The position numbers and the translations under genes were made by a program. The notes under the pieces are model-generated. The model searched no databases and was not told the DNA's origin. It was given only the letters and a program-made list of their open reading frames with translations. Below, one piece after another: positions 1 through 27,696 of a stretch of 29,638 nt of DNA (positions within the stretch are counted from its first letter, which is position 1; each line of letters begins with the position of its first letter). The stretch comes from a virus. The stretch is taken from the IMG/VR virus record IMGVR_UViG_3300025769_000578, positions 1 to 29,638 of that record, one strand, 5' to 3'.

Positions 1-531
1 GCTCAAGGCGCTACTGGAGCCGCTGGTGCTAACGGTACTACAGGCCCTCAAGGTGCTACAGGCCCTCAAGGTGCTACTGGTGCCGCTGGCGCTGCTGGTG
101 CTACGGGCGCTAACGGTACTACAGGCCCTCAAGGAGCCGCTGGTGCTACCGGTGCTGCTGGTGCTCAAGGTGCTACTGGTGCTCAAGGCGCTACTGGAGC
201 CGCTGGTGCTAACGGTACTACAGGCCCTCAAGGCGCTACTGGAGCCGCTGGTGCTAACGGTACTACAGGCCCTCAAGGTGCTACAGGCCCTCAAGGTGCT
301 ACAGGTGCCGCTGGCCCTCAAGGCGCTACTGGAGCCGCTGGTGCTAACGGTACTACAGGCCCTCAAGGTGCTACAGGCCCTCAAGGTGCTACAGGTGCTC
401 AGGGTGTGACTGGGGCTGGTACCGCTGGTGCTACAGGTGCTACCGGACCTGCTGGAGTTTCAGAAGTAGATGGGGGCTCTGCGTCGTCAACTTATGTAAC
501 TGCTCAAATAATTGATGGAGGGTCCGCATAA
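1..531 (+). CDS. Collagen-like tail fibre protein, C-terminal part (5' end outside window)
   Basis: Frame 1 is open from the first base to a TAA at 529-531. About 140 residues are uninterrupted Gly-X-Y triplets (typical units [19 protein letters not shown]), followed by a non-collagenous tail ending [11 protein letters not shown]. Such stretches form triple-helical shafts in phage fibres and bacterial surface proteins. Pro occurs almost only in the X position (Gly-Pro-Gln), Thr and Ala dominate, and Lys and Arg are absent, so stability would come from Thr/Gln packing or from modification. GC content is clearly higher than in the rest of the window, as expected from GGN/GCN codons. The stop overlaps the next start (TAATG at 529-533), so the following propeller gene is probably translationally coupled. 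The collagen reading is firm; the exact place in the virion is inferred from the neighbouring fibre genes. Confidence 0.85.
223..398 (+). repeat. Long direct repeats inside the collagen-like gene
   Basis: Bases 223-308 and 313-398 are identical over 86 nt at a 90-nt offset. Bases 1-53 are repeated exactly at 181-233. All offsets are multiples of nine, so loss or gain of a unit keeps the Gly-X-Y frame. The tract should be prone to expansion and contraction by slippage or recombination, and also to assembly collapse. Confidence 0.85.
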
Positions 532-1592
532 TGGCAACAATACGCTTTAGAAGAGATACTTCATCTAACTGGACATCAAGTAACCCTACTTTATACCTCG
601 GAGAACTTGGCGTAGAGACAGATACTTTAAAAATAAAAATGGGAGATGGTTCTACTGAATGGACATCTTTGGGGTATCTGTCTTGGAACGATCCTCCTTA
701 TCTAGCATCTACTTTCCAAGGTGAAGTTAGCGGATATACTTCTGGTGGTATACCAATCTTTAACACTATCGATAAGTTCCCTTTCTCATCTGATGCGAAT
801 GCTACTGATGTAGGTGATTTGACAGTATCAAAAAATGGTACAACAGGACAATCATCAGCAGATAATGGATATACTTCTGGTGGATATAATCCAGGTGCGA
901 GCGCTATAGTTAATGTAATTGATAAATTTCCATTCTCAGCTGATGCGAATGCTACTGATGTAGGTGATATAACAGTAGGAAGATACAAGTCAGCCGGTCA
1001 ATCGTCATCTGCTAGTGGGTATACTTCTGGTGGTTTTGGACCATCAGTCTCTAACGTCATTGATAAATTCTCTTTCTCTTCTGATGCTAATGCTACTGAT
1101 GTAGGTGATCTGACAGTAGCAAGATATTCTGTAGCAGGTCAATCATCAACCGATAGCGGATATGCTTCTGGCGGGCAAACACCATCAATCTCTAACGTCA
1201 TCGATAAGTTCCCTTTCTCATCTGATGCGAATGCTACTGATGTAGGAGATATAACAGTAGCACAAACTGCCGTAAACGGTCAATCATCAACTGATAATGG
1301 ATATACTTCTGGCGGTTCTAATCCTGGTTTATCGCCTTCCATTGCTAACGTTATAGACAAATTTTCATTCGCTTCTGATGCTAACGCTACTGACGTAGGA
1401 GATTTATCAGTAGCTAGATATTCTCCCGCAGGTTCACAATCATCAACTGTTAGTGGATATACTTCTGGGGGCAGAGAGCCAGCAACCTCTAACGTTATCG
1501 ATAAATTCCCATTCGCTTCTGATGCTAACGCTACTGACGTAGGAGATTTATCAGTAGCTAGACATACATCAGGAGAAGGGCAACAGGTATAA
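531..1592 (+). CDS. Kelch-like beta-propeller tail fibre/adhesin, paralogue 1
   Basis: 353 residues. Residues 1-60 match the short beta head-piece seen at the start of many phage fibres (Mtd_N-like): RRDTSSNWTSSNP, then GELGVETDT and KMGDGSTEW. From about residue 68 there are six ~47-residue repeats. Each has GYTSGG, a variable loop, NVIDKF, a DANATDVGDL block, then VAR and a small loop before GQSS. The order GG...D.F...L..AR...G is that of kelch/galactose-oxidase blades. The last repeat stops early at GQQV, just where the first GYTSGG would complete it, which implies a closed six-bladed ring. A likely receptor-binding tip, inferred. It is the most divergent of the five copies and is separated from the other four by three genes. 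The ATG overlaps the stop of the collagen-like gene. Confidence 0.8.
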   Translation: MATIRFRRDTSSNWTSSNPTLYLGELGVETDTLKIKMGDGSTEWTSLGYLSWNDPPYLASTFQGEVSGYTSGGIPIFNTIDKFPFSSDANATDVGDLTVSKNGTTGQSSADNGYTSGGYNPGASAIVNVIDKFPFSADANATDVGDITVGRYKSAGQSSSASGYTSGGFGPSVSNVIDKFSFSSDANATDVGDLTVARYSVAGQSSTDSGYASGGQTPSISNVIDKFPFSSDANATDVGDITVAQTAVNGQSSTDNGYTSGGSNPGLSPSIANVIDKFSFASDANATDVGDLSVARYSPAGSQSSTVSGYTSGGREPATSNVIDKFPFASDANATDVGDLSVARHTSGEGQQV

Positions 1593-1615: not shown

Positions 1616-2548
1616 ATGAGTGAAAATAAAGAAATTGCTATTTATGAGCAAATTAGAAAAGACTTAACAGTAGTAGATGGGTCGGAATACACTGTTCCAA
1701 TGGCAGCAGTTTTTGGAAAAGGAACCGTAGCAAAAGTTGAGAGTTTTGGCAATAAAACTTTAGCACAAAATACACAACTTGTAGATACTGCTATACAAAA
1801 TTCAAGAGAGTTACAAAATATTTGGAATCATAGTCACTCTCAATGGGATTGGAAACATATCAATCTCTCCTATCACAGTCCTTTAAAAAATATGCGACAA
1901 ATTGCTGCTGAAATAAACAGAAAAAAGAACGCATTGAATGAAGCAAAATGGAGACAAATTGAACAAGAAGTAAAAATCAGAAAAATAGAAGAAAAATTAG
2001 AGATTGGAGATTTAGATTACTGGAAGGAAGTAGACCTAAAAGTTAAACTCGCTAAGCTAAAAGAAGGCATGGCAGAAGGTGTAGTTTATATTGAAGGAGC
2101 TATGAAGGATATTTTAGCACTGAACGATCTTTATGAACAGTTAAAAAATAAAGCGTCAGAATTTTCTGAAAATGACTTTGAAAAAGAAGAATCAAAGAAC
2201 CATTTAAAAAGAAGTGTTGTTCAGTGTATACGAGATGTCAGACAGTCAGGCTCGATCACTAAAGGAGAGCAGGAGTACCTAGAACAGATTGGAGTAAATC
2301 CTGGAAAAATGCAAGTACTGATACGTCAGTATATTGTAAAAGAAGTAGAAGAGGACTCTTGGAGTACTAAAGGATTGCAAGATTTTGTATCTGAAATAGT
2401 AGATGAGCTAATTGATAATCAAAAAGTTGACATTCAAAGAATGGAAATGATGGGCTTTAACCCAGACTCAACTCCAGATTTTACTTATGATAAAAAAGTA
2501 GCATTATTAACAAAACAGGACGTGAGGGATGAACAGAGCACTGACTGA
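1616..2548 (+). CDS. Unknown coiled-coil protein in fibre locus
   Basis: 310 residues, not recognised as a named family. It is highly charged and mostly helical in appearance. Residues about 90-130 (KNMRQIAAEINRKKNALNEA onward) and 140-190 look like long amphipathic or coiled-coil helices. A His/Trp-rich patch, HSHSQWDWKH, lies at residues 72-81. There is no signal peptide or membrane segment. An AAGAGG ribosome site is 11 nt before the ATG. The 3' end overlaps the next gene (2OG oxygenase) by 20 nt, so the two are probably co-translated. Its place between fibre genes suggests a structural, chaperone or assembly role, but nothing in the sequence proves one. Confidence 0.75.
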   Translation: MSENKEIAIYEQIRKDLTVVDGSEYTVPMAAVFGKGTVAKVESFGNKTLAQNTQLVDTAIQNSRELQNIWNHSHSQWDWKHINLSYHSPLKNMRQIAAEINRKKNALNEAKWRQIEQEVKIRKIEEKLEIGDLDYWKEVDLKVKLAKLKEGMAEGVVYIEGAMKDILALNDLYEQLKNKASEFSENDFEKEESKNHLKRSVVQCIRDVRQSGSITKGEQEYLEQIGVNPGKMQVLIRQYIVKEVEEDSWSTKGLQDFVSEIVDELIDNQKVDIQRMEMMGFNPDSTPDFTYDKKVALLTKQDVRDEQSTD

Positions 2549-3722
2549 GGCCGGAGCAACATTAGAACAAAATAAATATATTTATTCTTCTGGAGTATTA
2601 CCAGTACAGATTTGTACTGATTTAAGCAATCATTTATTTAATCTACATAAAGAGGGAAAATTAACACAAGACGATCAATGTCCTTCTTCCTTTTCAATTT
2701 ACGGTGATCCGAAGTTTGAAATGGTTTTACAAGATTTAGCAGATAAATTATCCGCAACTTTAGGAAAAAAAGTTTTACCCACATACTGTTACGCAAGATT
2801 ATATCAGAAGGGAGAAATATTACATAAACATAAAGATAGACCGTCCTGCGAAATCAGCATTACTGTTACATTAGACCACGATAAAAGCTCTATAATTTGG
2901 CCCATAAAAATGGGTGAAGAAAAAAATATTTTTATAGAAAAAGGTGATGGAGTAATATATAAAGGATGTGAAATTGAACATTGGAGAGAGCCCTATAAAG
3001 GAGAATGGCAAACGCAAGTATTTTTTCATTTTGTAGATGCGGAAGGGCAATATAGAGAGTATGCTTTCGATAAAAGACAATCTTTAAGTTCAGTTACTCA
3101 AATTAAAAACACTACAAAAGCCTTAACAGGTTCTGGTTATTTTGCTAATCAGTGCGATGATTATCATCCTACTTTAGAAGTAAGTGATATACACTTCTCA
3201 GAGGAAGAATGTGATAAAATTATTAGCATAGCTAACAATAATTATTCTGAGAAAGCATCAGTAGGGGCAGATGAATACGGAACATACAGAAAAGAGGTAA
3301 GAGAAGTAAATAGTTACAGTATTCCGATTTCTTTAGAAAACGATTGGATTTTTAATCGCATAGTAACAGCAGTATCAAAAGAAAATGCTAATAAATTTAA
3401 ATTTAATTTATTAGGAATTATACATGGTCTAGAGCTTTTACACTACTCTTCTGAAACAAAATGTCATTATAACTGGCACGTAGATACTGGGCCTGGAAGT
3501 TCTACAAATAGAAAATTGTCCGTTTCAGTACAATTAAGTGATCCAAAAAACTATAAAGGAGGAGAACTTTTAGTTAATGATGGAAATATAAAAGTTGGCT
3601 CTTTTACTAGAGGTTCTATAAATATATTTCCAAGTTATTTACTACATACTGTAACAGAAGTTACGGAAGGAGATAGATGGGCTATAGTTATATGGATACA
3701 TGGCTCAGATAGATTTAAATAG
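2529..3722 (+). CDS. Tandem 2-oxoglutarate/Fe(II)-dependent oxygenase (two catalytic domains)
   Basis: 397 residues with two double-stranded beta-helix oxygenase domains. Domain 1 (about 20-175) has the HxD pair H101/D103 in LHKHKDRPSCE and the distal His H151 in EIEHWREP. Domain 2 (about 215-395) has H317/D319 in NWHVDTG, distal H373, and R383 ten residues later, the usual 2-oxoglutarate-binding Arg; RKLSVSVQLSDP and YKGGEL are typical of the prolyl-4-hydroxylase-like branch. Such enzymes hydroxylate a substrate using O2 and 2-oxoglutarate. Both Fe(II) triads appear intact. Marine phages often carry single-domain members, and their substrate is usually unknown. Here the gene sits between fibre genes, downstream of a collagen-like fibre, so prolyl or other fibre hydroxylation is an obvious but untested idea. 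It overlaps the previous gene by 20 nt. Confidence 0.88.
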   Translation: MNRALTEAGATLEQNKYIYSSGVLPVQICTDLSNHLFNLHKEGKLTQDDQCPSSFSIYGDPKFEMVLQDLADKLSATLGKKVLPTYCYARLYQKGEILHKHKDRPSCEISITVTLDHDKSSIIWPIKMGEEKNIFIEKGDGVIYKGCEIEHWREPYKGEWQTQVFFHFVDAEGQYREYAFDKRQSLSSVTQIKNTTKALTGSGYFANQCDDYHPTLEVSDIHFSEEECDKIISIANNNYSEKASVGADEYGTYRKEVREVNSYSIPISLENDWIFNRIVTAVSKENANKFKFNLLGIIHGLELLHYSSETKCHYNWHVDTGPGSSTNRKLSVSVQLSDPKNYKGGELLVNDGNIKVGSFTRGSINIFPSYLLHTVTEVTEGDRWAIVIWIHGSDRFK

Positions 3723-3726
3723 GAGA
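3720..3726 (+). promoter_or_regulatory. Stop codon fused to Shine-Dalgarno (TAGGAGA)
   Basis: The TAG stop of the oxygenase is the first part of the TAGGAGA ribosome-binding site for the ATG at 3732, so termination and re-initiation are directly coupled. Confidence 0.75.
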
Positions 3727-3731
3727 AATAA

Positions 3732-4061
3732 ATGCCTGTAATTGAATACAAGCTACATAAAATTGGAAAAAATGCTAAAGCTGTTCCAGTCTGGGTAGAG
3801 GATGGAGGATATTGGAAAAATTCTTCCGATAATACCTTATTAGGGTGGGTAGAGGCTGAGGCGGATAGAGACTATTATATTCCCGATACAGTTACAGAGC
3901 TTACTAAAAGTGATGTAACTACTAGATTATTAGCAATGCACTCTTCAAGTCCGTTTCTAGTTACGGCGGAAGATGGACAGTCTACAGAAGAGGCTATGAC
4001 AATCGAGCAAGTAACTAATATGGCGGAAGACTGGTACGATAGTTTTATATCAGGAAGATAG
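3732..4061 (+). CDS. Small conserved-looking fibre-locus protein, function unknown
   Basis: 109 residues, acidic and soluble, without a signal peptide or membrane segment. It begins MPVIEYKLHKIG and contains WVEDGGYWKNSSD and a stretch YYIPDTVTEL. The N-terminal half looks beta-rich; the end (EEAMTIEQVTNMAEDWYDSF) looks helical. No family is recognised. It has a good AGGAGA site and lies 9 nt after the oxygenase stop and 9 nt before the next propeller gene, so it is co-transcribed with both. A fibre-attached or assembly protein would fit the setting; this is inference from position only. Confidence 0.75.
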   Translation: MPVIEYKLHKIGKNAKAVPVWVEDGGYWKNSSDNTLLGWVEAEADRDYYIPDTVTELTKSDVTTRLLAMHSSSPFLVTAEDGQSTEEAMTIEQVTNMAEDWYDSFISGR

Positions 4062-4070
4062 GAAACACAA

Positions 4071-5114
4071 GTGGCTAATCAATTAAAAGCTAGAAGAGAT
4101 ACCGCAAGTAACTGGCAGTCTCAAAATACTGTATTAGGAGCCGGAGAGCTTGGAGGAGAAACTGATACTGGAAAAATTAAAATTGGGGACGGCTCAACTG
4201 CTTGGAACTCCTTACAATATGTAACTGAAGATCCTGCTACTCCTGTTTATTCATTCCAAGGTTCTACCAGTGGATATACTTCTGGTGGATTTGGACCAGG
4301 AAACTCAAACGTGATAGATAAATTCCCCTTCTCTTCAGACGGTAATGCTACTGACGTTGGGGACATGACAATAACAAGATATGACAGTGTTGGACAATCT
4401 TCTTCTGTTAGCGGATATACTTCTGGTGGAACAGCGCCCGGATACACAAACGTTATAGATAAATTCCCTTTCTCTACTGACGCTAATGCAACAGACGTTG
4501 GTGATTTAACAGATGCCAAACGCTTGGGAGCAGGTCAATCATCTGCAGATAATGGATATTATTCTGGCGGCGATGCCGATCCTGGACGTTTGAACGTCAT
4601 TGAAAAATTTCCATTTGCTTCAGACGCTAATGCCACTGACGTCGGGGATTTAACTGTAACAAGAGAGAAACCCACAGGTCAATCGTCATCTGATAATGGA
4701 TATACTTCTGGTGGAGCAACCCCAGGAACAACAAACGTCATTGACAAATTCCCGTTTTCTTCAGATGCGAATGCTACTGATGTAGGTGATTTGACAGTAG
4801 CAAGATATTATGCAGCAGGTCAATCATCGGCAGATAATGGATATACTTCTGGTGGAAGTGGAGTATCAATTTCTAACGTCATCGATAAATTCCCATTCTC
4901 GTCTGATGCGAATGCTAGTGATGTAGGTGATTTGACAGTAGCAAGATATGGTGCAGCAGGTCAATCATCTACTGCTAGTGGATATACTTCTGGTGGATAT
5001 GCACCACCAAACACAAACGTCATTGACAAATTCCCCTTCTCATCTGACGGTAATGCTACTGATGTAGGTGATATAACAGTAGCAAGAAGATTCGTAGCAG
5101 GTCAACAGGTATAG
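4071..5114 (+). CDS. Kelch-like beta-propeller tail fibre/adhesin, paralogue 2
   Basis: 347 residues with a GTG start preceded by AGGAA. The Mtd_N-like head-piece (ARRDTASNWQSQNTVLGAGE, then ETDTGKIKIGDGSTAW) is almost identical to that of paralogue 3. The linker PVYSFQGSTSGY is shared with paralogue 5. Six kelch-like blades follow; the loops after GYTSGG read FGPGNS, TAPGYT, DADPGRL, ATPGTT, SGVSIS and YAPPNT. Blade 5 has NASDVGD where nearly all others have NATDVGD. The end is GQQV, as in every paralogue, consistent with ring closure by the first strand. Likely a receptor-binding protein; the receptor cannot be read from sequence. Confidence 0.8.
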   Translation: MANQLKARRDTASNWQSQNTVLGAGELGGETDTGKIKIGDGSTAWNSLQYVTEDPATPVYSFQGSTSGYTSGGFGPGNSNVIDKFPFSSDGNATDVGDMTITRYDSVGQSSSVSGYTSGGTAPGYTNVIDKFPFSTDANATDVGDLTDAKRLGAGQSSADNGYYSGGDADPGRLNVIEKFPFASDANATDVGDLTVTREKPTGQSSSDNGYTSGGATPGTTNVIDKFPFSSDANATDVGDLTVARYYAAGQSSADNGYTSGGSGVSISNVIDKFPFSSDANASDVGDLTVARYGAAGQSSTASGYTSGGYAPPNTNVIDKFPFSSDGNATDVGDITVARRFVAGQQV

Positions 5115-5118
5115 GAGA
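5112..5118 (+). promoter_or_regulatory. Stop codon fused to Shine-Dalgarno (TAGGAGA)
   Basis: The TAG stop of paralogue 2 is embedded in the ribosome-binding site of paralogue 3 (ATG at 5124). Confidence 0.75.
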
Positions 5119-5123
5119 GACTT

Positions 5124-6197
5124 ATGGCTTATCAATTAAAAGCTAGAAGAGATACCGCAAGTAACTGGCAGTCTCAAAATACTGTATTAGGAGCCGGAGA
5201 GCTTGGAGTAGAAACTGATACTGGAAAAATTAAAGTTGGAGACGGCTCAACTGCTTGGAATTCCTTACAGTATGTAACTGAAGATCCTGCTACTCCTATT
5301 GGCACGCAAGCACAAGGAAGTAGCTATGGATATACTTCTGGGGGTTTTATACCACCAAACACAAACATCATCGACAAATTCCCATTCTCAGCTGATGCTA
5401 ATGCTACTGATGTAGGTGATTTGACAGTAGCAAGACAACGTATGGCAGGACAATCTTCATCTGTTAGTGGATATACTTCTGGTGGAACTCCAGGAGCAAT
5501 TAACGTCATTGACAAATTCCCATTTGCTTCTGATGGAAATGCTACTGACGTTGGTGATATAACAGAAGCAAGATATTCTACAGCAGGTCAATCGTCAACT
5601 GATAATGGTTATTCTTCTGGTGGTAGACCTTCAGGACCATCGAGTTCAAACATCATCGACAAATTCCCGTTCTCTTCAGACGCTAATGCCACTGACGTTG
5701 GTGATTTGACAGTAGCAAGACAAGAGATATCAGGTCAATCATCAACCACTAGTGGATATTCTTCTGGTGGGTTTTCAGTTACTTCTCCACCACTAAGAAT
5801 AACACATCGCAATATCATTGATAAATTCCCATTCTCATCTGACGCTAACGCCACGGATGTAGGAGATTTAGCAGTAACAAGATGGCAGACGGCAGGTCAA
5901 TCATCAACTGCTAGTGGATATACTTCTGGTGGTTATGCGCCATCGCTTACAAGTTCTACGAACATTATTGAAAAATTCCCATTTTCTTCCGATGGTAATG
6001 CTACGGATGTTGGCGATTTGACAGTAGCAAGATATGGTGCAGTAGGTCAATCATCAACTGCTAGCGGTTATACTTCTGGTGGAACACCAGGACCAATTAA
6101 CGTCATTGACAAATTCCCCTTCTCTTCCGATGCTAACGCCACTGATGTAGGTGATTTGACAGGAACAAGAGGATCGGCGGCAGGTCAACAGGTATAG
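5124..6197 (+). CDS. Kelch-like beta-propeller tail fibre/adhesin, paralogue 3
   Basis: 357 residues, the longest copy. The head-piece is nearly the same as in paralogue 2, with GVETD in place of GGETD, but the linker differs (ATPIGTQAQGSSYGY). Six blades follow; loop lengths range from five residues (TPGAI, TPGPI) to thirteen in blade 4 (FSVTSPPLRITHR), the longest and most basic loop in the family. The conserved core is unchanged around it, as expected if loop insertions are tolerated on one face of a propeller. The end is GQQV. The loops are presumably the ligand-contacting surface; this is inferred from the pattern of variation. Confidence 0.8.
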   Translation: MAYQLKARRDTASNWQSQNTVLGAGELGVETDTGKIKVGDGSTAWNSLQYVTEDPATPIGTQAQGSSYGYTSGGFIPPNTNIIDKFPFSADANATDVGDLTVARQRMAGQSSSVSGYTSGGTPGAINVIDKFPFASDGNATDVGDITEARYSTAGQSSTDNGYSSGGRPSGPSSSNIIDKFPFSSDANATDVGDLTVARQEISGQSSTTSGYSSGGFSVTSPPLRITHRNIIDKFPFSSDANATDVGDLAVTRWQTAGQSSTASGYTSGGYAPSLTSSTNIIEKFPFSSDGNATDVGDLTVARYGAVGQSSTASGYTSGGTPGPINVIDKFPFSSDANATDVGDLTGTRGSAAGQQV

Positions 6198-6201
6198 GAG
6201 A
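6195..6201 (+). promoter_or_regulatory. Stop codon fused to Shine-Dalgarno (TAGGAGA)
   Basis: The TAG stop of paralogue 3 is embedded in the ribosome-binding site of paralogue 4 (ATG at 6207). Confidence 0.75.
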
Positions 6202-6206
6202 GATTT

Positions 6207-7259
6207 ATGGCTATTCAAATTCGAAGAGACCCCGCGGCTAGATGGACTTCGGTTAACCCTGTACTTGCTAGTATGGAACTAGGTTGTGAGTCTGATACTG
6301 GAAAAGTAAAAGTAGGAGATGGCTCAAGTACTTGGACACAATTAGATTACGCTGCAACGACTGCTCCTCTTGCTGTTCCAGGTGTAACCCAAGGGAGTAC
6401 TTCTGGATACGCTTCTGGTGGAAACGATCCGAGTGGTGGGATAAATGTCATCGAGAAATTCTCATTCTCTTCAGATGGTAATGCTACTGATGTTGGTGAT
6501 TTGACAGTAGCAAAACTTGCTACAGCAGGTCAATCATCAACTGCTAGCGGATATTCTTCTGGTGGGTATGTTCCTACAGATCCTGTAGGTTTATCAAACG
6601 TCATTGATAAATTCCCATTCGCTACTGACGCTAATGCAACAGACGTTGGGGATTTGACAGGTATAAAATATCATTTGGCGGGTCAATCAGGAAGTTCTAG
6701 TGGATATACTTCTGGGGGATCCTCGCCAACAGGTGCGGTAAACGTTATAGAGAAATTCCCATTCGCTTCTGATGCTAATGCTACAGATGTAGGTGATTTG
6801 ACAGCAGTAAGATACTTTCTAGCAGGACAAAATTCAGCAGATAATGGATATTCTTCTGGCGGATATCCACCATACACAAACATCATCGATAAATTCCCAT
6901 TCTCTTCCGATGCTAATGCTACTGATGTAGGTAATCTGACAGTAGCAAGAGGATATGTAACAGGTCAATCCTCAGACGTTAGTGGATATACTTCTGGAGG
7001 ATATATGCCACCAACCACAAACGTCATCGATAAGTTTTCTTTCTCATCTGACGGTAATGCTACTGATGTTGGTGATTTGACAGTAGCAAAATATGGCGCA
7101 GCAGGTCAATCATCGACTGTTAGTGGATATTCTTCTGGAGGAGGAGCTCCGGGCGCATCAAACGTCATTGAAAAATTTCCATTCTCATCTGATGCTAATG
7201 CTACTGATGTAGGAGATTTAACACAGGTAAAATATTATGCAGCAGGTCAACAGGTATAG
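6207..7259 (+). CDS. Kelch-like beta-propeller tail fibre/adhesin, paralogue 4
   Basis: 350 residues. The head-piece is of a second type, RRDPAARWTSVNPVL, then GCESDTGKVKVGDGSSTW and LDYAATTAP, shared with paralogue 5 only. Six blades follow, with loops NDPSGGI, YVPTDPVGLS, SSPTGAV, YPPYT, YMPPTT and GAPGAS. Blade order and loop sequences match paralogue 5 blade by blade, so these two are the most recent duplicates. Blade 4 has DVGNL where the core is normally DVGDL. The end is GQQV. Expected to act as a fibre tip or adhesin like its paralogues. Confidence 0.8.
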   Translation: MAIQIRRDPAARWTSVNPVLASMELGCESDTGKVKVGDGSSTWTQLDYAATTAPLAVPGVTQGSTSGYASGGNDPSGGINVIEKFSFSSDGNATDVGDLTVAKLATAGQSSTASGYSSGGYVPTDPVGLSNVIDKFPFATDANATDVGDLTGIKYHLAGQSGSSSGYTSGGSSPTGAVNVIEKFPFASDANATDVGDLTAVRYFLAGQNSADNGYSSGGYPPYTNIIDKFPFSSDANATDVGNLTVARGYVTGQSSDVSGYTSGGYMPPTTNVIDKFSFSSDGNATDVGDLTVAKYGAAGQSSTVSGYSSGGGAPGASNVIEKFPFSSDANATDVGDLTQVKYYAAGQQV

Positions 7260-7263
7260 GAGA
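7257..7263 (+). promoter_or_regulatory. Stop codon fused to Shine-Dalgarno (TAGGAGA)
   Basis: The TAG stop of paralogue 4 is embedded in the ribosome-binding site of paralogue 5 (ATG at 7269). Confidence 0.75.
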
Positions 7264-7268
7264 TACTT

Positions 7269-8318
7269 ATGGTAACAAGAGTTATAATTAGAAGAGACCC
7301 GGCAGCTCAATGGACTTCTGATAACCCTGTACTTGGTAGTGGGGAACTAGGTTGTGAGTCTGATACTGGAAAAGTAAAAGTAGGAGATGGCTCAAGTACT
7401 TGGACAGGATTAGATTACGCTGCAACGACTGCTCCTGTTTATTCATTCCAAGGTTCTACCAGTGGATATGCTTCTGGTGGAAACGATCCGAGTGGTGGGA
7501 TAAACCCCATTGATAAATTCCCGTTCTCATCTGATGGTAATGCTACTGATGTAGGTGATTTGACAGCAGCAAAATTAGGAGTAGCAGGTCAATCATCAAC
7601 TGCTAGTGGCTATGTTTCTGGTGGGTATGAACCTACAGATCCTACAGGTTTAATAAACGTTATAGAGAAATTCCCTTTCTCTTCTGATGGTAATGCTACA
7701 GACGTTGGTGATTTGACAGGTCAAAAATATCATTTGACGGGTCAAACAGGAAGTTCTAGTGGATATACTTCTGGAGGATCCTCGCCAACAGGTGCGGTAA
7801 ACGTTATAGAGAAATTCCCATTCTCTACTGACGCTAATGCTACAGACGTTGGGGATTTGACAGTAGCAAGATACTTTGTAGCAGGTCAAAATTCAGCAGA
7901 TAATGGATATTCTTCTGGCGGATATCCACCATACACAAACGTCATTGATAAATTCCCATTCGCTACTGACGCTAATGCTACAGACGTTGGGGATTTGACA
8001 GTAGCAAGAGCATATGTAGCAGGTCAATCCTCAGACGTTAGTGGATATACTTCTGGAGGATATATACCACCAACCACAAACGTCATTGATAAATTCTCTT
8101 TCTCATCTGATGCGAATGCTACTGATGTAGGTGATTTATCAGTAACTAGATATGGTGTAACAGGTCAATCATCTACTGTTAGTGGATATTCTTCTGGAGG
8201 AGGAACAGGAACGCAAGTAAACGTAATTGACAAGTTCCCATTCTCATCTGACGGTAATGCTACTGATGTAGGTGATTTGACAGTAGCAAGATATTATGCA
8301 GCAGGACAACAGGTATAA
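7269..8318 (+). CDS. Kelch-like beta-propeller tail fibre/adhesin, paralogue 5
   Basis: 349 residues. It is a mosaic. The head-piece (RRDPAAQWTSDNPVL, then GCESDTGKVKVGDGSSTW) is like paralogue 4. The linker PVYSFQGSTSGY is identical at DNA level over 38 nt (7432-7469 and 4240-4277) to paralogue 2. The six blades again follow paralogue 4 (NDPSGGI, YEPTDPTGLI, SSPTGAV, YPPYT, YIPPTT) except the last (GTGTQV). This pattern points to gene conversion between copies. It ends GQQV with a TAA stop instead of the fused TAGGAGA, and no clear ribosome site leads into the sulfotransferase. Confidence 0.8.
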   Translation: MVTRVIIRRDPAAQWTSDNPVLGSGELGCESDTGKVKVGDGSSTWTGLDYAATTAPVYSFQGSTSGYASGGNDPSGGINPIDKFPFSSDGNATDVGDLTAAKLGVAGQSSTASGYVSGGYEPTDPTGLINVIEKFPFSSDGNATDVGDLTGQKYHLTGQTGSSSGYTSGGSSPTGAVNVIEKFPFSTDANATDVGDLTVARYFVAGQNSADNGYSSGGYPPYTNVIDKFPFATDANATDVGDLTVARAYVAGQSSDVSGYTSGGYIPPTTNVIDKFSFSSDANATDVGDLSVTRYGVTGQSSTVSGYSSGGGTGTQVNVIDKFPFSSDGNATDVGDLTVARYYAAGQQV

Positions 8319-8365
8319 ACTGATTCTCTTTAAAATTTAATATGTTATTTAATTATGGATTTATT

Positions 8366-9205
8366 ATGAAACAAATACATTTTTGCGGTGGACTTCCACG
8401 CTCAGGATCAACAGTATTAATGAATATACTTCAGCAAAACCCTAAAGTATTCACAACCACCACTGATCCCTTCCCAATGAACCTTCAACGATATTTTCTG
8501 CAAAGATTTCGCGTAACTGAATCATTCCAAGCCATGGACGCTGAACACGCGGATCGAGCAACTTATGGTATGGTAATGGGGGCAATCAATGGTTGGTACA
8601 GTGGATTAACAGACAAACCTGTTGTTATCTCTAAGACTCGTTATTGGAATCGAATTCATCATTTACTACCTGATTCGAAAAAACTAATCTTGATTCGAGA
8701 CTTGAGAGATGTTGTTGAAAGTTTTAACAAAATCAATTTAAAATTAAAAGCATTACATACCTACGAAACAGAAGGGACTTCGTTATATGCTGCTATGACT
8801 GAATCGCAAAAATTTGAATATCATTTCAATAGGGAAAATTCTTTAAGCGCGTCATTAAAAGAAGAAATACCAGCAGCAATGGAATTTTGGATGTACGAGG
8901 GCAAAAAAGACACAATTAAGTTTATTCGTTACGAAGACTTTCTTAAAAATCCTATAGATACAATTAGATCAATCTATGCTTTTCTTAATTTAAATTATTA
9001 CGAACACGACTTAGATAATATTTCACAATCAGAAATGTTTGAACATGATAATGCCTATTTTATGGAGAAAACCGATCATCGGACCAAACCCTCCTTTATT
9101 AAATGGCAACCACCAAAAAGGTTATTAAGCGATCGTATACATAATCGTATACTTGAAGAATATCAATGGTTTTATGAAGGATTTTATCCGGAGGAATTAA
9201 AATAA
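8366..9205 (+). CDS. Sulfotransferase (PAPS-dependent), end of fibre locus
   Basis: 279 residues from the ATG at 8366. An ATG at 8342 would add eight residues, but the strand-loop motif normally sits right at the start. The 5'-phosphosulfate loop is GGLPRSGST at residues 8-16, close to the form found in tyrosylprotein sulfotransferases. The 3'-phosphate-binding segment is LILIRDLRDVVESF with R111 and S119. The C-terminal part has IRYEDFLKNP, also typical. These enzymes move sulfate from PAPS to a hydroxyl group on a protein, sugar or lipid. No signal peptide or membrane helix is seen, so it acts in the cytoplasm. Phages carry such genes with unknown targets. Its position directly after Tyr/Ser/Thr-rich propeller genes makes fibre sulfation conceivable; host glycan or metabolite modification is equally possible. 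Confidence 0.88.
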   Translation: MKQIHFCGGLPRSGSTVLMNILQQNPKVFTTTTDPFPMNLQRYFLQRFRVTESFQAMDAEHADRATYGMVMGAINGWYSGLTDKPVVISKTRYWNRIHHLLPDSKKLILIRDLRDVVESFNKINLKLKALHTYETEGTSLYAAMTESQKFEYHFNRENSLSASLKEEIPAAMEFWMYEGKKDTIKFIRYEDFLKNPIDTIRSIYAFLNLNYYEHDLDNISQSEMFEHDNAYFMEKTDHRTKPSFIKWQPPKRLLSDRIHNRILEEYQWFYEGFYPEELK

Positions 9206-24490: not shown

Positions 24491-25237
24491 TTAAATCTCC
24501 AATAATTCTTTAATATCAGATATGATAATTATTCCCATTGCCTCAGCTTTTTTTGTTTTTGCGGAAGCAATATTACTTTCATTAACTAGATATTTAGTAT
24601 CTCTAGTAATGGATGTTTTTACTACGTAGCCTTTTTGTTGTAAAACTCCTTTTGCAATTTCTTTTGTTTTAAAAGAAAACAGTTTTCCAGTTATAACAAC
24701 AACGGGACCAGAAGTTATTTCTTCTTGTGTAGTCTTCCACTCAAAGGGAAGATTTTTGTACTTATACGCATATTCAGTATTAAACCAATGCATAAAGTTA
24801 AGTATCGTTTTTGCTCCTAGACCGGCTTCTAAAAGTTTTTGCTCTGTTACTTCTGTAATATTACTTATTTGAGAGCACAATTTCTCGGAAGCTGTTTTTC
24901 CAAATAAAGGAATAGAAAACGAACCTAAAAGGTTACTAAGACCCGCACTTTTGCTTTTCTCGATCTGATCCAATAATTTATCGGCTAGTGTAACACTATT
25001 CAGCTTACTTACTACATAGTCTCTATCTAATTCGTAAATATCTGATATATCGGATAGTTCCAGCGATGCAATAGTGGCAGGCCCTAGACCTTTAATTTTT
25101 AGTGAAGAAGCAAAATGAGAAATAATTTTGCGACTTTTATCCGCACAATCACTGTTTCTACAGTACAGAAGATCATTTACCCATACAAGCTCAGAGTTAC
25201 ACCCTGGACAATGTGTAGGCGGCAAAATTTCTTTCAA
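24491..25237 (-). CDS. ligA: NAD-dependent DNA ligase, C-terminal part (Zn finger, HhH, BRCT), separate gene
   Basis: 248 residues from a TTG at 25237. A longer frame reaches back to 25294, but it would translate the promoter itself; the TTG has GGGGAAGAAG upstream and lies about 22 nt after the expected transcription start. Domains: four-Cys zinc finger (C10, C13, C26, C31), helix-hairpin-helix repeats (about 45-165, including LKIKGLGPATIASL and LLGSFSIPLFGKTAS), and a C-terminal BRCT domain (about 178-248, VVVITGKLFSFKTKE). These are exactly the parts missing from the gene at 25298-26251. The two halves should assemble into one DNA ligase that seals nicks. The stop is 1 nt before the next ATG. 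Confidence 0.88.
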   Translation of the reverse strand: MKEILPPTHCPGCNSELVWVNDLLYCRNSDCADKSRKIISHFASSLKIKGLGPATIASLELSDISDIYELDRDYVVSKLNSVTLADKLLDQIEKSKSAGLSNLLGSFSIPLFGKTASEKLCSQISNITEVTEQKLLEAGLGAKTILNFMHWFNTEYAYKYKNLPFEWKTTQEEITSGPVVVITGKLFSFKTKEIAKGVLQQKGYVVKTSITRDTKYLVNESNIASAKTKKAEAMGIIIISDIKELLEI

Positions 25238-25265
25238 GTTACTTCTTCCCCAAAAATGAATATAT

Positions 25266-25294
25266 ATTATACATAAATCAACAAAAGATGTCAA
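25266..25294 (-). promoter_or_regulatory. Perfect sigma-70 promoter between the two ligase genes
   Basis: Minus strand: TTGACA (25294-25289), 17-nt spacer, TATAAT (25271-25266), both perfect. It starts 3 nt after the stop of the N-terminal ligase gene. Expected start point is near 25259. Confidence 0.92.
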
Positions 25295-25297
25295 GAA

Positions 25298-26251
25298 TTA
25301 TTTTTCTATACGTCTTGTAATTCTAGGTATAATATCGCCAGATCTTATTACTTCTACTTTACAGCCTATTTCCAAGTTTAAAGATCTGATATACTCTATA
25401 TTATGTAAAGTAGCTTTTGTTATTCTAGCTCCGTCTATTTCTATAGGATCTAATATCCCCACGGGGGATACTACTCCACTTTTTCCAGTCTGCCAGATAA
25501 CATTTATAAGAGTTGTTACTTTGCCTTCTTTTCTAGTTTTTAAGGCAAAAGAACCTCTTGGATGATGAGATGTCCATCCTTGTTTTTCATAGTCTTGATT
25601 ATTATCAATTCTGAACACAATTCCATCTCTAGGAAACTGCTCATATTTATCTGCCGTGGAAACGGAGAACCCGTTTTCAGCAAAAAATATCATGTCTTCT
25701 GAGAAAGAAGTTGTTATATATGGATAACACCCATGTACAATAAAGGACAGATCACGAGAGAGAAACTCATCTATGCTTTTAAGATTTAGGGAACCAGCAG
25801 CATAGTTTCTAGAGTTTGGTATTGACTTGGGAGAAACTATCTCTCCCGTGATCTGTATAGGTTGACTACTAAAAGATATTCTTTTAGGAACTAAGTTTTT
25901 AGCAAGGAACTTATCGGTAACATCAATACCATATTTTCCGTCACCCCTAGTCAGCACTTGTACTAAGTATCCGTTACTATAAGTAACGGCAACAGACGCA
26001 CCGTCTAGTTTTGGACTTGCAACTATTTTTCCTTTATAGGAAGATAAAGGATTTTGCCCTTGATCTTCATAGTGTTTTTGCAAACTGTATAAAGGATGTG
26101 TGTGCTTAACTTTTCCGTTACTATTATCAAGTTGATAACCTACTTCTTTCCAACTAGCCTGCTCTGCGAGAGCATCAAACTCTTCATCAGACATAATCGG
26201 GGAGCCTTCATAATAGTGTCTGGCTGCTTTTTGTAGTAGTTTAATCAACAA
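25298..26251 (-). CDS. ligA: NAD-dependent DNA ligase, N-terminal part (adenylation + OB fold), separate gene
   Basis: 317 residues with a TTG start and AAGGA upstream. A shortened Ia (NAD-binding) region is present: YYEGSPIMSDEEFDAL and HTHPLYSLQKHY. The adenylation domain has the nucleophile K81 in SPKLDGAS, followed by LTRGDGKYGIDVT, QITGEIV, SRNYAAGSL and FALKTRKE. The OB fold runs from about 250 to the end (VIWQTGKSGVVSPVG ... SGDIIPRI), and the protein stops where a complete LigA would continue into its zinc finger. It can probably self-adenylate, but it needs the partner gene for full DNA clamping. The two genes lie in the same reading frame, divided by one TAA and about 60 nt. Confidence 0.9.
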   Translation of the reverse strand: MLIKLLQKAARHYYEGSPIMSDEEFDALAEQASWKEVGYQLDNSNGKVKHTHPLYSLQKHYEDQGQNPLSSYKGKIVASPKLDGASVAVTYSNGYLVQVLTRGDGKYGIDVTDKFLAKNLVPKRISFSSQPIQITGEIVSPKSIPNSRNYAAGSLNLKSIDEFLSRDLSFIVHGCYPYITTSFSEDMIFFAENGFSVSTADKYEQFPRDGIVFRIDNNQDYEKQGWTSHHPRGSFALKTRKEGKVTTLINVIWQTGKSGVVSPVGILDPIEIDGARITKATLHNIEYIRSLNLEIGCKVEVIRSGDIIPRITRRIEK

Positions 26252-26940: not shown

Positions 26941-27696
26941 TTACTTTTTTGGGGGGTCTAACTCTATTGCATGATATATCGGTGTTTTTTCCGGCATTTC
27001 TTGATAGAGTCTTTTGTTCAGGTCTTCAATAGATACATAGTCCAAGTATGTATTTATCTTAGAGTCTGGACTCATGGAATAAATTTTTATTCCTAAAGGT
27101 TTACACATTAGATGAAACTTATATAGATATGTACTTAACTGATTATATAAATCAGTGTTCCACTGCCTTTGTTTATCAGACAGCTTCATATCATCAAAGT
27201 AATCTCCGTTTTGTAAACTAAAATCGCACCCTACTAGATATATTTCTCTGTGTCCCATCCACATTATAATATTCAGCATGGTTGCAAAAGAGTTTTGGTG
27301 CCAGACAAATTTTCCTTCTTCTGTAAGATCGGAAAAAATATCATAAACTCCCTCTGCTTTTTTAAGGGTTGCGTAATACATATTATGAAGCTTAAATAGC
27401 TTAACTCCATTATATGTTCTATTTTGATAGCCTCCTCGTAGTATTTTTATAAAGGGCTCAAAGAAGAGATCTCTATTGTAACAATGAGGATCATCCATAC
27501 CAACCCAAACATCTGGCTTAATTTTAGGGTAAACATTGTTCAGCCCAAAAATTACCTTTTTAGGCCCAGGAAGTAGTGAAGAATCTATTTTGTTAAAGGA
27601 CGGGCCACCACAGACAAGTATAGCTACAGAAGAGCTATACAGTCTGTGAAAACTAGAGGAGTGCCAAGCTCCTCTATTGAAGTAAAGCAGGGACAT
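26941..27696 (-). CDS. MptE-like / DUF115-type Rossmann-fold protein
   Basis: 251 residues. AILVCGGPSFNKID (about 25-38) with FGLNNVYPKIKPDVWVGMDD resembles the start of MptE-like and CST-type sialyltransferase-like proteins, where a Gly/Pro/Ser loop binds a nucleotide-linked donor. NSFATMLNIIMWMGHREIYL and VGCDFSL follow, also typical of this group. It may transfer a pyrophosphate or sugar group; the substrate cannot be told. In phages such genes may act in glycan or nucleotide modification. The start is 2 nt after the stop of the HTH gene with no clear ribosome site, so coupling is likely. Its 3' end has a C6A6G run just before the stop. Confidence 0.65.
   Translation of the reverse strand: MSLLYFNRGAWHSSSFHRLYSSSVAILVCGGPSFNKIDSSLLPGPKKVIFGLNNVYPKIKPDVWVGMDDPHCYNRDLFFEPFIKILRGGYQNRTYNGVKLFKLHNMYYATLKKAEGVYDIFSDLTEEGKFVWHQNSFATMLNIIMWMGHREIYLVGCDFSLQNGDYFDDMKLSDKQRQWNTDLYNQLSTYLYKFHLMCKPLGIKIYSMSPDSKINTYLDYVSIEDLNKRLYQEMPEKTPIYHAIELDPPKK

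Follow-up and report, generated by a model that had tools for sequence, protein, structure and literature searches.

Oxygenase and sulfotransferase genes at a phage adhesin locus: a probable adhesin-modification cassette

A fused two-domain 2-oxoglutarate (2OG)-Fe(II) oxygenase, OG, and a sulfotransferase of the 3'-phosphoadenosine-5'-phosphosulfate (PAPS) type, ST, are encoded among the tail fibre genes of the IMG/VR virus record IMGVR_UViG_3300025769_000578, analysed here as one stretch of 29,638 bases (the window). Tpa1/OGFOD1, the prolyl hydroxylases of ribosomal protein uS12, likewise have two 2OG-type domains in tandem, just one of them catalytic. The nearest solved sequences to ST are the protein-tyrosine sulfotransferases TPST1 and TPST2, in which the EETR motif holds the proposed catalytic Glu (Glu99). 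EGLN3-like 2OG oxygenases, which belong to the same superfamily as OG, are common in marine phages (Phold survey, PMC12774648); the main text of that survey mentions neither sulfotransferases nor ferrochelatase, a label that concerns one domain of OG. An earlier note on this DNA had suggested that OG and ST modify the fibres in sequence. As described below, the locus is probably an adhesin-modification cassette acting on the phage's own fibres, with the two enzymes separable.

The fused oxygenase and the sulfotransferase

The enzyme genes and domains are as follows.
2529..3722, + strand: OG, fused two-domain 2OG-Fe(II) oxygenase of 397 amino acids (motifs, profiles, predicted fold)
2541..3074, + strand: OG N-domain, residues about 5-182, triad H101, D103, H151 (phrog_2954, E 7e-49; predicted fold)
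3159..3719, + strand: OG C-domain, residues about 211-397, triad H317, D319, H373 plus R383 (PF13640, E 7e-16)
8366..9205, + strand: ST, PAPS-type sulfotransferase (PF13469, Sulfotransfer_3, E 7e-18; start set by relatives)

The earlier description of OG as a two-domain enzyme with both metal triads intact was correct: H101-x-D103...H151 and H317-x-D319...H373 (with R383) are invariant in ten fused proteins. H101, D103 and H151 are also invariant across 37 N-domain sequences, and among 35 sequences of the C-domain both His residues and R383 are invariant while D319 is at least 90% conserved. The AlphaFold model of OG (mean predicted local distance difference test score, pLDDT, of 82) places both domains in the double-stranded beta-helix fold, and each half of it (residues 5-182 and 212-397) separately matches 2OG oxygenases.

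By sequence and model, the C-domain clearly belongs to the 2OG-Fe(II) oxygenase superfamily. It shares the fold, the HxD...H motif and the 2OG Arg with Pseudomonas putida prolyl-4-hydroxylase (P4H), PHD2/EGLN and PiuC-type enzymes (Z 19.6, 18.6 and 16.7, respectively), and its profile matches in PDB are PiuC-type enzymes and P4H. Identity to these proteins is 14-20%, and OG differs from them in having a second catalytic-looking domain fused in front. This N-domain has no Pfam family; its model matches SnoN, PHD2 and the collagen prolyl 3-hydroxylase P3H1 at Z 15.6-17.3. Comparison of the N-domain and C-domain profiles gave a probability of 57%, which is suggestive at most. No basic residue of the N-domain is invariant at position +10 from the distal His, R153 and K157 being candidates for 2OG binding; activity of this domain is thus less certain than its fold. 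Tpa1/OGFOD1 is the top whole-chain Foldseek match to OG (E 2e-10), but identity is about 10%, the whole chains superpose poorly and OG has both triads intact.

Judging from its relatives, the ST gene starts at ATG 8366 and not at 8342. Its PAPS loops are encoded at 8390-8413 (GLPRSGST) and 8696-8725 (RDLRDVVESF). The motifs PRSGST and RDxRD...S are present, and P11, R12, G14, S15, T16, R111, D112, R114, D115 and S119 are invariant in relatives. When the ST profile is compared with PDB, TPST1/TPST2 rank first (E 4e-6) and the PAPS loops align, but where TPST has EETR the alignment shows TTTD in ST. Thus the sulfotransferase assignment of the earlier note stands, while the tyrosylprotein sulfotransferase likeness it pointed out is one of overall sequence, with the catalytic motif replaced. 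ST is better described, on its sequence, as a PAPS sulfotransferase of the TPST-containing group than classed as a TPST. A genome scan for a cellular origin of ST with a degenerate pattern gave no relative, which is a weak negative.

Gene order around the adhesin genes

The left third of the window is a single run of + strand genes from the left edge to 9205, beyond which NrdB lies on the - strand; this fits the earlier note, in which ST closes the operon. Besides OG and ST the run includes the following genes.
1..531, + strand: collagen-like tail fibre gene, 3' part, cut by the window edge (PF01391, E 8e-23)
531..1592, + strand: kelch-like fibre 1, Mtd_N domain and about six repeats of ~48 amino acids, GYxSGG...NVIDKFPF...NATDVGDLT (Mtd_N, E 1e-13; five-paralogue alignment)
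1616..2548, + strand: U1, conserved helical protein of 310 amino acids, module marker gene (50-78% identity in ten relatives)
3732..4061, + strand: U2, conserved protein of 109 amino acids (33-57% identity in seven relatives)
4071..5114, + strand: kelch-like fibre 2 (family match, paralogue alignment)
5124..6197, + strand: kelch-like fibre 3 (family match, paralogue alignment)
6207..7259, + strand: kelch-like fibre 4 (family match, paralogue alignment)
7269..8318, + strand: kelch-like fibre 5, directly upstream of ST (paralogue alignment; neighbour order kept in relatives)

The order is therefore collagen-like fibre end, kelch-like fibre, U1, OG, U2, four kelch-like fibres and ST. OG lies among fibre genes downstream of the collagen-like fibre, as had been noted, but kelch-like fibre 1 and U1 intervene between them. 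The OG start overlaps the U1 end by 20 nucleotides. The earlier note had missed U1 and U2, both of them conserved. Each of the five kelch-like fibres, the one starting at 531 and the four between the enzymes, combines an Mtd_N domain with some six kelch-like repeats.

In IMG/VR contigs, many of which are fragments, the genes for ST, OG, U1, U2 and kelch-like fibres are repeatedly found together. Propellers were called with profile hidden Markov models built in this analysis, regular expressions and Pfam spot checks, and baselines were drawn from other genes of the same loci. In a first set of 35 ST clusters, a beta-propeller gene stands just upstream of ST in 27 of 33 (24 of 285 for other genes) and a 2OG oxygenase gene just downstream in 26 of 33 (6 of 273 for other genes); Pfam confirms the downstream oxygenase in the examples tested. 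A wider scan gave 94 dereplicated ST clusters, 90 of them with an upstream gene: 34 beta-propellers, 21 BspA-type leucine-rich repeat (LRR) genes, 6 gp46 and 29 others, some being other fibres. A propeller or LRR gene thus precedes ST in 34+21 of 90 clusters against 34 of 838 other genes of the loci (Fisher 5e-41).

The adhesin families upstream of ST are kelch-like, RCC1-like (PF00415, E 1e-119), DUF5122 propeller (E 4e-90) and LRR_5 (E down to 2e-182); Pfam checks of five examples bore out the BspA-type LRR assignment. One locus (L010) has a propeller with YVTN-like repeats before ST, assigned by eye and by regular expression. A propeller stands directly before ST in S-SRM01 and AG-345-E08 (RCC1) and in S-SKS1 and AG-345-O18 (kelch-like), and none does in S-SCSM1 and AG-345-E15. 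The idea that every distant ST stands behind a beta-propeller was dropped, as the widest set also has LRR adhesins, gp46 and other genes in this position. Distant ST genes directly behind BspA-type LRR_5 tail-fibre-like genes are found in L365-L413 (e.g., L367:1002-2402 and L395:4191-5957). A separate ST clade stands behind a gp46-like gene, apart from adhesins (L095, which is S-SCSM1, L381, L382, L394, L401, L408 and L416), and its substrate may differ.

A 2OG oxygenase gene follows ST in 24 of 30 loci of the window's clade and in 3 of 60 distant ones; within the clade the two genes often overlap start to stop. Taken with the upstream adhesin counts, this indicates that the adhesin-ST link is general, whereas the ST-2OG coupling is confined to the window's clade. 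Some loci hold three or more oxygenases; at L113:10859-11988, for example, two additional single-domain 2OG enzymes (PF13759 and PF13640) are encoded between ST and OG. Searches of the open-access literature brought up no earlier report of the adhesin-ST-2OG order.

Fused OG and U1 share 46 clusters; they are on one strand in all of these and no more than 60 bp apart in 30. When 19 records were searched whole, all 12 with U1 also carried OG and kelch-like fibres, while the seven without U1 had no full-length match to fused OG, one of them having kelch-like fibres alone. ST is missing from 5 of the 12 long records with OG, U1 and kelch fibres. The T4-type major capsid protein Gp23 was found in 9 of 12 long records tested.

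The PolA of the window is nearest to that of T5-like phages of Proteus (44% identity). Compared with its sister L013, the window is 84% identical in PolA and 89% in NrdB but just 68% in ST, whereas it shares 88% ST identity with L003, a 155-kb Gp23-bearing record from which the window's T5-like PolA is absent. U1 and OG of the window track the sister (78% and 69% identity). ST has thus apparently moved between unrelated phages with similar fibres, and the adhesin-ST association, as far as sequence can tell, crosses phage types. This gene order, shared by many unrelated phages, gives good support to the earlier note's view of the enzymes as functional parts of the adhesin locus.

U1, for which 169 relatives were found, is predicted to be all-helical (pLDDT 69). 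It gave no fold match at E 0.001 and weak matches to phrog_1409; a protein in a similar position in S-SKS1 matches phrog_1409 and not the U1 profile, and we claim no homology between it and U1. A tandem U1 pair, 61% and 51% identical to U1 of the window, is found in L103:9986-11923. Family searches gave no convincing match for U2; it has an acidic stretch with tyrosines (EADRDYYIPD), partly conserved, which could be a sulfation target. Several repeats of kelch-like fibres 4 and 5 (6207-8318) are near-identical, indicating recent duplication or gene conversion.

The remainder of the window is mostly a replication block. The nicotinamide adenine dinucleotide (NAD)-dependent DNA ligase (24491-26251) is seemingly split into two adjacent open reading frames, for the adenylation part and the zinc finger/BRCT part, as in T5. 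A 251-amino-acid open reading frame (26941-27696) has a weak match (E 0.02) to a sialyltransferase-like phage family and nothing else. A scan for promoters and terminators found nothing above chance.

Possible targets of the enzymes

From the gene identities, the metal and PAPS motifs (all intact), the fold predictions and the conserved adhesin linkage we infer what the enzymes may act on, by which chemistry, how U1 and U2 may take part and what the phage may gain. Several kelch-like beta-propeller adhesins and the modifying enzymes would be made from one operon, and the enzymes would most likely modify the adhesins in the cytoplasm of the host, either ahead of virion assembly or in the course of it. 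Fused OG probably hydroxylates fibre residues, with U1 (perhaps U2) as a partner or chaperone presenting fibres to it. ST probably uses host PAPS to sulfate hydroxyl groups of the adhesin or of an attached sugar, which would alter adhesin charge, stability or receptor binding. OG and ST are separable and no fixed order of action is necessary. On balance we favour the cassette acting on the phage's own fibres. More tentatively, and with doubt slightly outweighing confidence, we suggest that phages broadly sulfate, and this clade also hydroxylates, their own receptor-binding adhesins, a general route across unrelated phages and adhesin folds.

Several observations weigh against modification of the phage's own fibres. 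Loci were clustered by shared 60-mers, so they are dereplicated but not fully independent phylogenetically. In 6 of 90 clusters, and in L138 and L140 as well, ST stands behind gp46 or another gene of replication. Comparison of kelch repeats from phages with and without ST revealed no clear acceptor site, with 4 clusters only in the latter group. N-x-S/T sequons are enriched in kelch (1.4x) and RCC1 (1.4x) repeats no more than in U1 (1.5x), and per-blade N-glycosylation sequons were dropped for this reason. Finally, sugar-related genes in several ST loci imply that the acceptor may be a glycan.

The last point leads to the strongest, though still unlikely, alternative: that the adhesins are glycosylated and ST (perhaps the oxygenases too) decorates the attached sugar and not an amino acid. 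RCC1-type ST loci encode proteins with tetratricopeptide repeats and a glycosyltransferase-like C-terminus (a reading made by eye) or a nucleotide-sugar epimerase (L154, L156, L157, L346, L096 and L192), and glycosyltransferase-like and methyltransferase genes adjoin ST in L116 and L127. However, there is no glycosyltransferase beside ST in the left-cut window or in many kelch-like loci, and the nearest solved sequence relatives of ST act on protein tyrosine. The RCC1 loci of L154, L156, L157, L346 and L096 also hold several 2OG oxygenases; adhesin glycosylation is possible in them.

Slightly less probable is that the enzymes target host metabolites or the host surface and are found at adhesin loci solely because such loci are hot spots for accessory genes. 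In favour of this are the variability of fibre loci, the apparent mobility of ST across phage types and published surveys (PMC8290583, PMC10829341, PMC12285232) in which phage enzymes of both kinds, sulfotransferases and 2OG oxygenases, count as metabolic genes. Against it, the order is not random: ST comes after an adhesin, an often overlapping 2OG gene comes next in the window's clade, and adhesin families unrelated to one another show the adhesin-ST order. The fixed order, the overlapping genes, the unrelated adhesin families and the exchange between phage types are together better explained by action on adhesins.

We give little credence to the route of the earlier note, in which OG acts on the collagen-like fibre and creates a hydroxyl later sulfated by ST. 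Close coupling of ST with a 2OG oxygenase in the window's clade (24 of 30) speaks for it, as does the resemblance of the N-domain fold to, among others, P3H1 (Z 15.6), which acts on X-position Pro; in the Gly-Pro-Gln triplets of the collagen-like fibre (1-531) Pro is in X, as the note had stated. Yet collagen as a general substrate is contradicted by the distribution of collagen-like genes, present in 5 of 12 long fused-OG records and 2 of 7 long ST records (none was found in the other 7 and 5) and in 5/31, 5/39 and 6/43 clusters around ST, U1 and OG seeds; for the window itself this substrate is possible. The expected co-occurrence thus held for kelch-like fibres, present in 12 of 12 fused-OG records, and failed for collagen-like ones. 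A fixed route from hydroxylation to sulfation is unnecessary, since either enzyme can be found without its counterpart (5 of 12 records lack ST, and 3 of 60 distant ST genes are followed by an oxygenase), while the tight coupling seen in the window's clade alone makes a sequential route conceivable there. Modification of phage DNA or nucleotides is very improbable: the N-domain profile weakly matches TET-like dioxygenases in PDB (E 0.04), gp46 precedes ST in one clade and phage sulfotransferases have been cited in nucleotide modification (PMC10829341), but the best structural matches of both OG domains are mostly prolyl hydroxylases and the enzyme genes sit with fibres, away from the replication block.

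The ferrochelatase label and the meaning of the locus

The N-domain of OG is a member of phrog_2954, a family labelled 'ferrochelatase' and treated in print as a heme gene. None of 37 phrog_2954 members matches the Pfam ferrochelatase family (PF00762) at E 0.1, and all 37 of those proteins match phrog_2954. This lack of PF00762 matches, the 2OG-type triad and the predicted fold speak against a ferrochelatase identity for the N-domain. Distant phages often encode the N and C domains as two adjacent genes; in Synechococcus phage S-SSM5 such neighbours are annotated '2OG-Fe(II) oxygenase' and 'ferrochelatase'. The phrog_2954 and phrog_3531 proteins of cyanophages and pelagiphages, where the domains are often unfused, are of the same family as the N-domain, and by sequence and model these 'ferrochelatases' look like 2OG-Fe(II) oxygenases. 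Genes treated as ferrochelatases in the literature each stand beside a 2OG oxygenase (PMC9599517, PMC11561400). The simpler reading is that both neighbouring genes are 2OG oxygenases, and such pairing would explain the position of a 'ferrochelatase' gene beside a 2OG gene. Published claims on pelagiphage gene content made in these two papers rest on the seemingly wrong label.

Aquatic viromes repeatedly contain phage sulfotransferases and 2OG oxygenases, which are often interpreted as auxiliary metabolic genes; their conserved place behind adhesin genes points to the virion as the enzyme target. This target is testable in isolates, e.g., Synechococcus phages S-SRM01 and S-SKS1. If the proposal is true, host range and adsorption would be set partly by modifications that sequence-based adhesin prediction misses, made by enzymes so far classed as metabolic or, in the case of one domain, as a ferrochelatase.

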